Notes: generated by a model from the sequence alone, not told the origin. A stretch of DNA of 64,000 nt from Erythrobacteraceae bacterium (GCA_024642525.1 JAHEAX010000002.1:1-64000), one strand, 5' to 3'; shown: positions 50,699-53,881, counted from the stretch's first letter. Made by a program: numbers and translations.

Positions 50699-51913
50699 AT
50701 GCAAAACCTGAACGCTGCCTGTTTGTCTGCCTTGATTATGGGCGTATTCGCCCAGCCTGCCGCCGCCGGAGTAATCGAGATTGCCGCCGGGGAAGGCGCG
50801 CAGGAACGGTTGCAGGAAGCGTTGATAATGGCGCAGCCGGGTGACGAGATCGTCCTTGGCGCAGGGCGATTTGAATTGTCCGACGGGCTTTCGCTGGATG
50901 TCGATAGTGTAACTGTTCGCGGCGCAGGCATGGATGCCTCCATTCTCGATTTCACATCGCAGCAAGGCGCTGGCGAGGGGCTGCTGGTCACGTCAGACTT
51001 TGTCACCCTGCGCGATTTCGCCCTGGAAAATCCCAAGGGAGACGGGGTCAAATCCAAGGGCGCAGATGCCATTGTTTATCACCGCATCAGGGTGACATGG
51101 ACAAATGGCCCCGCCGCCACAAATGGTGCTTATGGCATTTATCCGGTTGAAAGCACCGGTATCCTGATCGACGGCAGCAAGGTTTCCGGCGCGTCCGATG
51201 CGGGCATCTATGTGGGCCAGAGCCGCGCGATCACCGTTCGCAATTCCATCGCGGAAGCCAATGTGGCCGGTATCGAGATTGAAAACAGCCGCGACGCATT
51301 GGTTGAAGGGAATATCGCCACCCGCAATACCGGCGGCATTTTGGTGTTTGACCTGCCCAACCTGCCTGTGATGGGCGGGGGCAATGTAATCCTTCGCAAC
51401 AATCTGGTCGTCGCCAATGACGAACCCAATTTTGCACCGCCGGGCAATATCGTCGCAGGGGTCCGCCGCGGCACCGGCATTTTGGTGATGGCGAATGATG
51501 GCGTGCTGGTCGAAGGCAATATCCTGAAAGACAATCCGACCGCCCATGTGATGGTGGTCGCCTATACCCAGCAATATGATGACACGCGTTACAACCCCTA
51601 TGCCCGCAATGTGGTGGTAGGGCCCAATAGTTTCGGCCGCGGCGGGGACGATCCGCAGCTGGACGGGGCAGCACAATTGCTGGCTGCATTTGGCGGCGCG
51701 TTGCCACCGGTCCTGTGGGATGGTCTGGCCCAGGGCGCTACCGGCCTCACGGCTGTGTCGGGCGTGGCAGGTTGGTCCCTTAACCTTACTGCGGTGGGCC
51801 AAGGGCTGGCAGGCGCGCAGCCAGGGCCTTTGACAGTGCCTGCCCCCACGTTTGCATTCGATGATGCAACTGTGGGCGCACCGGCAGAGCTGGAAGCGCG
51901 CCTCACCAGATGA
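50699..51913 (+). CDS. Secreted parallel beta-helix repeat protein (TIGR03805-like)
   Basis: Protein of 404 aa from the ATG at 50699, with a GAGAGGA site upstream. Signal peptide MQNLNAACLSALIMGVFAQPAAA. The body shows repeated beta-helix turns: GVIEIAAGEGAQERLQEALI, SVTVRGAGMDASILDF, GILIDGSKVSGASDAGIYVG, AITVRNSIAEANVAGIEIEN, GILVFDLPNLPVMGGGN, GVLVEGNILKDNP. This is the family catalogued as 'parallel beta-helix repeat protein' that occurs as a pair with a diheme cytochrome; function unknown. Stop overlaps the next gene (ATGA). Confidence 0.85.
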   Translation: MQNLNAACLSALIMGVFAQPAAAGVIEIAAGEGAQERLQEALIMAQPGDEIVLGAGRFELSDGLSLDVDSVTVRGAGMDASILDFTSQQGAGEGLLVTSDFVTLRDFALENPKGDGVKSKGADAIVYHRIRVTWTNGPAATNGAYGIYPVESTGILIDGSKVSGASDAGIYVGQSRAITVRNSIAEANVAGIEIENSRDALVEGNIATRNTGGILVFDLPNLPVMGGGNVILRNNLVVANDEPNFAPPGNIVAGVRRGTGILVMANDGVLVEGNILKDNPTAHVMVVAYTQQYDDTRYNPYARNVVVGPNSFGRGGDDPQLDGAAQLLAAFGGALPPVLWDGLAQGATGLTAVSGVAGWSLNLTAVGQGLAGAQPGPLTVPAPTFAFDDATVGAPAELEARLTR

Positions 51914-52914
51914 TCGGGCGCTGGCTTTTCGGGCTGGCGCTGACAGCCGCTGTCGGCGCGATGGCAACTGCGTCACAGCCGCTTTCTGGCGTCAGCGATG
52001 CCGCCATTACCGATGGTGGTCTGGTTCGCAGCCTGTCGGATTTCGGCTTTTTTGCCGATGCGAATGCGCAGATCCCGGCATCCGGCGTCATTCCCTACAG
52101 GCTGAACACGCCGCTGTTTTCTGACGGGGCCGAGAAGCTGCGCTTCCTCTATCTGCCACCCGGCGCACAGGCCGCAGCAAATGGCGAGGGGCTGCTGTCG
52201 CTTCCCGTGGGCGCGGCACTGATCAAGACTTTTGCCTTCAGGCAGGATGGGGAACGCCGCCTGATCGAAACGCGGGTGTTGCTGCACCGCGCGGATGGCT
52301 GGGTTGCCCTGCCATACCAATGGGATGAAGCGCAGCAGGAAGCACGGCTGGTGATCGCAGGTGCGCGGCTCACCGTCGCCACGCCTGCGGGTGAAACCAT
52401 CAGCTACCGCGTGCCCAACAAGAACCAATGCAAGGAATGTCACGGCCTTGGCGGAGCGGTCATACCCATCGGCCCCAAGGCAAGGAACCTGTCGGGGGAA
52501 TGGCTGGCTTCGCTGGTTTCGGCAGGCAAGATGGACCAGATGCCGCAGGTGGCCGCCAGCTTGCCCCTATGGGAAGCGCGCGAAGGAGAGCCCGCTGCGG
52601 CAGTGGCGCGTGCATATCTCGATGTGAATTGCGCCCACTGCCACCGGCCGGGCGCCACCGCGTCCAATTCCGGTCTCGATCTACGCTGGGAACAAGATGA
52701 TGCACACGCAATCGGCATCGGCAAGCGGCCCGTCGCCGCGGGGCGCGGTTCCGGCGGGCATGAATTTGATATCGTCCCGGGCCGGAGCGATGCTTCGATA
52801 CTGGTTCACCGCATGAAAAGCCTAGAGGGCGGGGTGGCCATGCCCGAACTTGGCAAATCGACTGTGGACGAGGAAGGCGTAGCTGCCGTTGAACGCTGGA
52901 TCGGGGGGATGTGA
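51910..52914 (+). CDS. Diheme c-type cytochrome, SO2930/TIGR03806-like
   Basis: Protein of 334 aa with a Sec signal (MIGRWLFGLALTAAVGAMATA). Two heme c motifs: CKECH (about 176) in NKNQCKECHGLGG, and CAHCH (about 241) in LDVNCAHCHRPGA. Motif TPLFSDGAEKLRFLYLPPGA belongs to a family known to pair with the beta-helix gene. The first heme motif is preceded by a beta-rich domain of about 170 residues. It is expected to act in the periplasm as an electron carrier or sensor. The partner's substrate is unknown. Confidence 0.87.
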   Translation: MIGRWLFGLALTAAVGAMATASQPLSGVSDAAITDGGLVRSLSDFGFFADANAQIPASGVIPYRLNTPLFSDGAEKLRFLYLPPGAQAAANGEGLLSLPVGAALIKTFAFRQDGERRLIETRVLLHRADGWVALPYQWDEAQQEARLVIAGARLTVATPAGETISYRVPNKNQCKECHGLGGAVIPIGPKARNLSGEWLASLVSAGKMDQMPQVAASLPLWEAREGEPAAAVARAYLDVNCAHCHRPGATASNSGLDLRWEQDDAHAIGIGKRPVAAGRGSGGHEFDIVPGRSDASILVHRMKSLEGGVAMPELGKSTVDEEGVAAVERWIGGM

Positions 52915-52918
52915 CCAG

Positions 52919-53881
52919 ATGAAGAAACTTGGCAAAATCGCGCTGGTGGTGCTCGTCTTGCTGGTGGCAGCATTTGTGATTTTCCGCACGCCTGACACCG
53001 ATCCGGCTGAAATGCGGGCGAAATATGCATCCGCACCTTCACAGTTCCTTGCTCTTGGAACAGGGCAGGAACTGCATCTGCGGGATGAAGGCCCGCGCGA
53101 TGCGCCGGTCATCATGCTGCTGCATGGGTCGAACGCAGATCTGAGCGCATGGGACGACTGGGCAGAGCGCCTGACAGATCAATATCGGGTCGTCCGTTAT
53201 GACCAGATTGGCCACGGCCTGACGGGCCCTGCGCCCGATGGTGATTACAGCCAGGCAGCCTTTGCCGCGATGCTGGGGCAAGTGGCGGACAGGCTGAAAA
53301 TCGACAAGTTCATCCTCGGCGGAAATTCCATGGGTGGCGGCGTTGCAATGGCATATGCACTAGCCCACCCCGAAAGGTTGAACGGGCTGGTGCTGGTCGA
53401 TGCAGCGGGCGCACCAATCAAGCGCGAAGGCGGCGGAAATATCGGCTTTACGTTGGCAAGGACCCCGGGGATCAACCTGCTGATGACGCAGATCACGCCG
53501 CGTTCGCTGGTAGAGCGCAGCCTTGCGCAAAGCGTGTCGAACAAGGCAGTCGTGACACCTGCTGCGGTTGACCGATACTGGGAAATGCTTCGCTACCCCG
53601 GCAACAGGGGGGCCACTGCAACGCGCTTCGGGACGGAGCGGAAGCCGTTTTCAGCCGGCGAAGTGCAGGCGATGCAGGTCCCCACCCTTGTCATGTGGGG
53701 CGAGGAAGACGCGCTCATCCCATTTGCGGCGGCCGGATGGTTTGCCGAAAACCTCCCATCGGCCAGCAGCGTGTCCTATGCGGGCATCGGCCATTTGCCA
53801 ATGAATGAAGCGCCAGATCGAAGTGCGGCAGACCTGCGCGGCTGGCTTGATGAATTGCCGTTAAGCACGCAAGACCGCTGA
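52919..53881 (+). CDS. Membrane-anchored alpha/beta hydrolase
   Basis: Protein of 320 aa. N-terminal anchor MKKLGKIALVVLVLLVAAFVIF. Hydrolase motifs: VIMLLHGSNADLSAW (oxyanion HG), nucleophile elbow LGGNSMGGGVAMAYALAHPERL (Ser at about 141), acid in VMWGEEDALIP (about 262) and His in GIGHLPMNEAP (about 293). The active domain should face the periplasm. It follows the cytochrome gene after 4 bp, so all three genes probably form one transcript; the substrate is unknown. Confidence 0.88.
   Translation: MKKLGKIALVVLVLLVAAFVIFRTPDTDPAEMRAKYASAPSQFLALGTGQELHLRDEGPRDAPVIMLLHGSNADLSAWDDWAERLTDQYRVVRYDQIGHGLTGPAPDGDYSQAAFAAMLGQVADRLKIDKFILGGNSMGGGVAMAYALAHPERLNGLVLVDAAGAPIKREGGGNIGFTLARTPGINLLMTQITPRSLVERSLAQSVSNKAVVTPAAVDRYWEMLRYPGNRGATATRFGTERKPFSAGEVQAMQVPTLVMWGEEDALIPFAAAGWFAENLPSASSVSYAGIGHLPMNEAPDRSAADLRGWLDELPLSTQDR

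Follow-up and report, generated by a model that had tools for sequence, protein, structure and literature searches.

A conserved beta-helix and diheme cytochrome c gene pair with an optional hydrolase gene in an Erythrobacteraceae bacterium: a possible envelope redox module

The closest described relatives of the genes analyzed here are the paired families TIGR03805 and TIGR03806 of NCBIfam, whose names (for instance "SO2930 family diheme c-type cytochrome") carry no function. PA4926 is taken by us to be related to these families. In the open-licence papers searched, no functional study of TIGR03805 or TIGR03806 proteins was found: PA4926 is mentioned a single time, as a growth-impairing insert and without function, and the papers on Shewanella SO_2930 and SO_2931 provide only an outer-membrane cytochrome listing, a multi-gene deletion or expression values. 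AupB of Marinobacter was considered as a characterised homologue, as suggested by the FadL-type porin gene which precedes one gene coding for a fused beta-helix and cytochrome. This candidate was rejected, because the corresponding paper gives a protein of unknown function and neither a beta-helix nor a cytochrome.

In the window, a stretch of 64 kb from Erythrobacteraceae bacterium, three genes follow each other on the + strand and code for a beta-helix protein (BH), a diheme cytochrome (CY) and an alpha/beta hydrolase (HY), in this order (Table 1). BH matched TIGR03805 over the whole profile (1-314 of 314) with 419.4 bits, above the curated cut-off of 141.5 bits, and CY, with its two CxxCH motifs, reached 359 bits for TIGR03806, above the curated cut-off of 313.3 bits. 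The assignment to both families made in a preliminary description of this DNA is in agreement with these values, and the gene order, the ATGA overlap, the 4-bp gap between the CY stop codon (TGA, 52912-52914) and the HY start codon (ATG, 52919) and the two CxxCH motifs that it gave are exact to the base. The locus had also been put forward as an undescribed system, which is true of its function only and not of the families, since both are already named. The BH-CY pair is an ordinary member of the recognised family pair, with which it shares the gene order and the overlapping reading frames, whereas the adjacent hydrolase gene is an addition limited to a part of the sphingomonads.

As read from the sequence, the N-termini of BH and CY are hydrophobic and secretion-signal-like, that of HY is a hydrophobic anchor, and the BH and CY of the window look soluble. 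The three genes are flanked on the 5' side by genes which, named by sequence appearance, are pntA/pntB transhydrogenase-like, and by a DUF2147 gene on the opposite strand; an Asp/Glu racemase-like gene is found on the 3' side. This flanking gene order recurs in relatives, and the nearest named genome found is that of Allopontixanthobacter confluentis, with a CY of 82% identity. Promoter and terminator scans of the locus gave results no better than those obtained with shuffled sequences.

Table 1. Coordinates of the genes and features of the BH-CY-HY locus, numbered from the first nucleotide of the window.
Feature	Position	Strand	Details and basis
BH: secreted parallel beta-helix protein, TIGR03805 (beta_helix_1)	50699..51913	+	404 aa; 419.4 bits
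BH signal-peptide-like N-terminus, about residues 1-23, ending in AQPAAA	50699..50767	+	sequence reading
BH conserved patch: Y145, P149, D167, Y171, E193, E195, N196	51131..51286	+	alignment, invariant in 53/53
ATGA shared by the BH stop and the CY start codons	51910..51913	+	sequence; recurs in homologous loci
CY: secreted diheme c-type cytochrome, TIGR03806 (SO2930 family)	51910..52914	+	334 aa; 359 bits
CY heme-binding motif 1, CKECH, residues 174-178	52429..52443	+	sequence
CY heme-binding motif 2, CAHCH, residues 241-245	52630..52644	+	sequence
CY M311-P312, possible axial ligand to one of the two hemes	52840..52845	+	invariant in 43 sequences
HY: membrane-anchored alpha/beta hydrolase, accessory	52919..53881	+	320 aa; PF00561, 95 bits
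HY catalytic triad: S137 (GNSMG), D264, H292	53327..53794	+	invariant in 24 homologues

The preliminary description stated that BH and CY regularly co-occur, and the association turned out to be stronger than this. In a sample of 399 genomes drawn across the phylum, BH was above its cut-off in all 37 genomes where CY was above its own. BH was detected above cut-off in 45 of the 399 genomes; beyond the 37, two of them contain a BH-CY fusion of which the cytochrome part is below the cut-off, and six hold a divergent BH without CY. The pair is present in about 9% of the sampled genomes. Among 80 named sphingomonad loci, two end at a contig edge and 78 reach far enough to be read; BH adjoins CY in all of these 78, with the ATGA (-4) overlap in 65. 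In other orders and classes, BH is found directly 5' of CY and on the same strand at all readable loci. In seven family-level groups (G387/G275/G349, G302, G252, G138, G475, G488 and G558), BH and CY are even produced as a single polypeptide (loci L141-L143, L161, L162, L163, L179, L180 and L185); the fused protein of L141 has 881 aa. Outside the sphingomonads, lipobox-like motifs are carried by many BH, CY and fused proteins, which are probably lipoproteins; such a motif is absent from the BH of the window. BH-CY is a conserved two-gene core module, and since the obligate pairing and the natural fusions support one physical unit, we infer that BH and CY form a physical complex in this species.

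The situation of the third gene is different. HY is intact in 55 of the 78 sphingomonad loci whose sequence extends far enough beyond CY, and 23 have no intact copy. In three of these 23 (L049, L077 and L104), a broken or truncated remnant of HY lies beside an intact BH-CY pair, which suggests recent losses. When the presence of HY was mapped on the CY tree, 12 changes were counted, of which at least 8 are forced by well-supported branches, and at 32 loci elsewhere in the phylum no HY match was found near BH-CY. Where HY is present, a 4-base overlap with CY is usual (39 of the 57 loci with an HY match), and HY is for this reason regarded as a genuine operon member. The recurrence of the -4 overlaps, both between BH and CY and between CY and HY, indicates that the arrangement is not due to chance. 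At eight loci (L042, L050, L061, L090, L094, L095, L097 and L106), HY was observed 165-189 nt 3' of CY, with no overlap. HY is thus a genuine but optional operon member, a clade-level add-on in sphingomonads, and because it is missing at many BH-CY loci and was not found at those of lineages outside the sphingomonads, the core is the two-gene module. The proposal of a tight three-gene unit, which was to be given up if genomes were found where the three genes are not kept together, is contradicted by these counts.

HY is a generic alpha/beta hydrolase (PF00561) for which no equivalog model was above its cut-off. By phmmer, its nearest solved relative is 6i8w, aligned with residues 10-312, N-terminal segment included (E = 2.1e-24). 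This structure is that of PlaF (PA2949), a membrane-anchored phospholipase A of Pseudomonas aeruginosa (PMC9132575). HY shares with PlaF the N-terminal anchor and the Ser-Asp-His triad but the identity is low and other esterases score almost as high, so that a PlaF-type activity of HY is at most predicted. Several related genera have their sole close hydrolase elsewhere in the genome, and in four genomes, including one that has no BH, an HY-like hydrolase lies beside members of one protein family. At these loci (L213, L216, L217 and L218), away from BH-CY, this hydrolase (about 48-52% identity with HY) adjoins a P450-type gene, confirmed by Pfam in L217, the one scanned. Apart from this P450-type gene, the surroundings of the HY-like genes at non-adjacent sites had no sugar or redox theme in common. 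These data bear on a lipid path formed by the three genes, in which a PlaF-like phospholipase HY would free lipid products that BH and CY would bind and oxidise. The almost complete alignment of HY with PlaF, anchor segment included, the 4-base overlap with CY in most loci that keep HY and the FadL-type porin gene in front of one fused BH-CY are compatible with such a path. It is nevertheless highly improbable in view of the 23 loci where HY is absent or broken, of its repeated changes on the CY tree, of the failure to find it at the BH-CY loci of other lineages, of the similar hydrolases located beside a P450-type gene and of the resemblance of HY to many other esterases.

The two proteins of the core are also found with exchanged partners. 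In seven of seven scanned fusions devoid of BH (loci L178, L181, L182, L186, L191, L192 and L164), a TIGR03806-like CY-type domain is located C-terminal to a PQQ glucose/sorbosone dehydrogenase domain (GSDH, PF07995). The position of the cytochrome module relative to its partner is the same as in BH-CY, but the partner is a PQQ-type propeller instead of a beta-helix and the cytochrome part is below the TIGR03806 cut-off. Some of these fusions also hold F5/8-type or Calx-beta domains. On the other side, a second architecture (type II, the BH-CY module being type I) consists of a divergent BH, with about 180-200 bits for TIGR03805, carrying a C-terminal monoheme cytochrome motif. At the nine type II loci (L221-L228 and L174, the latter on the Ruegeria pomeroyi megaplasmid), this protein is always coupled to a CCP_MauG-type diheme enzyme, the gene of which directly adjoins that of BH in eight cases and is separated from it by one tetratricopeptide gene in R. 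pomeroyi. The type II members tested have at their side an enzyme of the MauG, MbnH and diheme cytochrome c peroxidase kind, yet it scores below both the MauG and the MbnH cut-offs, MbnH being the nearest family (216 bits vs 363). No MauG-type diheme enzyme gene is present in the type I locus of the window.

Since BH is strictly paired with heme proteins in both architectures, and shows a weak similarity to the copper-related beta-helix protein NosD, it could be argued that BH is a non-catalytic, NosD-like factor for the assembly or maturation of CY or of another envelope metalloprotein. However, with 42.8 bits BH is far below the cut-off of 300 of the NosD family TIGR04247 and does not belong to it. 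A permanent fusion of such a factor to its client would moreover be rare, yet fusions of BH with CY and with other heme domains recur, and this role of BH appears quite unlikely.

The fold of BH was predicted with AlphaFold2 (mean pLDDT 93.1, pTM 0.91). The best match among solved structures was the mannuronan C5-epimerase AlgE4 (2pyg; Foldseek E = 4.5e-8, TM about 0.55), followed by polysaccharide lyases, and the model has the right-handed parallel beta-helix fold of the AlgE/AlgG enzymes. When the sequences were aligned by eye, the AlgG strand YGIDPHD corresponded to YGIYPVE in BH, with a common YGI-x-P motif. The catalytic DPH(D) of the epimerases is replaced by YPV(E), so that their catalytic Asp and His are lost in BH. 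The residues of BH that are invariant, namely Y145, P149, D167, Y171, E193, E195 and N196 (all 53 of the diverse type I and type II domains aligned), differ from those of AlgE4 and AlgG. According to the DSSP register of the model, residues 148, 171 and 193 are in one stack and residues 150, 173 and 195 in the next, and the patch sits on the strands where the related epimerases hold their active site; in the model, its residues may form one outward-exposed face. In type II, W134 and Q174 are either absent or altered. A tryptophan-derived cofactor at W134 was considered as a general idea and rejected, because type II lacks this residue.

In CY, the two cysteines and the histidine of each heme motif (C174, C177 and H178; C241, C244 and H245), as well as M311-P312, are invariant in 43 diverse sequences. 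By analogy with class I cytochromes c, the M311 region is a candidate for the axial ligand of one heme. The CY model has a pLDDT of 83; no meaningful Foldseek match and no solved fold for the whole chain were obtained with it, and the solved relatives of CY are short cytochrome c segments only.

The surroundings of the module in other genomes were also compared. As a raw count, nine of the 32 loci from elsewhere in the phylum have a TonB receptor gene within 1 kb of the type I module. Such a gene is also found in the vicinity of five of the nine type II loci, where diheme cytochrome c and AraC regulator genes are frequent as well. AraC regulators and TonB receptors are often present in both the GSDH and the type II-related contexts, and one type II locus carries an aldehyde dehydrogenase. 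The receptors of L168 (type I) and L228 (type II) share 42% identity over about 790 aa, nearly their full length; the receptor of L169 and L170 is unrelated to them. On plasmid pABRDHK22 of Novosphingobium sp. EMRT-2 (L173), a divergent BH-CY copy lies amid alcohol and aldehyde dehydrogenases, in a cluster that also contains a PQQ-dependent dehydrogenase, TonB receptor genes and arsenic resistance genes. One of the TonB receptor genes of this plasmid is apparently split by an IS5-family transposase. On a Hymenobacter plasmid, a BH for which no cytochrome is listed is found amid glycan hydrolase genes, and radical SAM and MscS genes are among the scanned neighbours of the Pseudomonas-like BH-CY loci.

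For the receptors beside both architectures, the closest family is TIGR01783 (siderophore receptor), with 134 and 103 bits against a cut-off of 223.5. Because of these siderophore-like receptors and of the MbnH and NosD resemblances, a role in metal acquisition has been kept alive: a TonB receptor would import a ferric or cupric chelate, BH would bind it and CY would reduce the metal, leading to its release in the periplasm, with electrons running from the cytochrome to the ligand. However, no TonB receptor is present in the locus of the window, and the L168/L228 receptor subfamily was found in at least two of 61 relatives when the best 16 candidates per genome were considered. The GSDH fusions and the alcohol and aldehyde dehydrogenase neighbours point instead to the oxidation of organic compounds, and the invariant patch is made of Asp, Glu, Tyr and Asn, with no His/Cys/Met cluster common to both BH types in the 53 domains. 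On balance, metal acquisition seems rather unlikely.

Owing to the exchange of BH for GSDH, to the carbohydrate-active type of fold and to the TonB receptor and dehydrogenase surroundings, we favour an envelope oxidation module, with a probability of roughly 0.4 for a BH-CY redox complex in which BH holds an organic ligand, CY accepts electrons and HY is accessory. BH and CY would be two subunits of this complex. BH, as a beta-helix of carbohydrate-active type, would hold a small organic ligand at the invariant Tyr/Asp/Glu site; this ligand would be glycan-like, most likely an oligosaccharide, a polyol or a similar compound. CY would dock on BH, its two hemes would take electrons from the oxidation of the ligand, and these would be passed to the periplasmic cytochrome pool, so that electron flow would be directed from the ligand to CY. 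BH-CY would work like the dehydrogenase-cytochrome fusions, where a PQQ-type propeller stands in the place of BH. HY, held in the inner membrane by its anchor and exposed to the periplasm, might cleave an ester or a lactone that the BH-CY pathway forms or presents.

An envelope oxidation role of BH-CY fits the evidence as a whole. Three observations count against it. A likeness in shape alone links beta-helix folds to many carbohydrate enzymes, and no significant profile match between BH and AlgG was obtained with hhalign. The TonB families nearest to the neighbouring receptors are of siderophore type, and below cut-off. Finally, no sugar gene adjoins BH-CY in the window or among the scanned neighbours at the Pseudomonas-like loci. 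The exit of electrons from the BH ligand is left unexplained, since to our knowledge no redox cofactor has been described for a beta-helix. A further proposal, which we consider very unlikely, is that BH itself catalyses the redox reaction. It would then be a dehydrogenase of a new class that gives electrons directly to the diheme cytochrome or, in type II, to the MauG-like enzyme, and a cofactor, either bound or self-made, might sit at the Tyr145/Asp167/Tyr171/Glu193/Glu195 patch. Should BH prove catalytic, it would represent a new oxidoreductase fold. The exchange of partners, with either a beta-helix or a PQQ propeller before the same cytochrome module and, on the other side, the same beta-helix with a cytochrome module or a MauG-like enzyme, turns an orphan gene pair into a testable claim.
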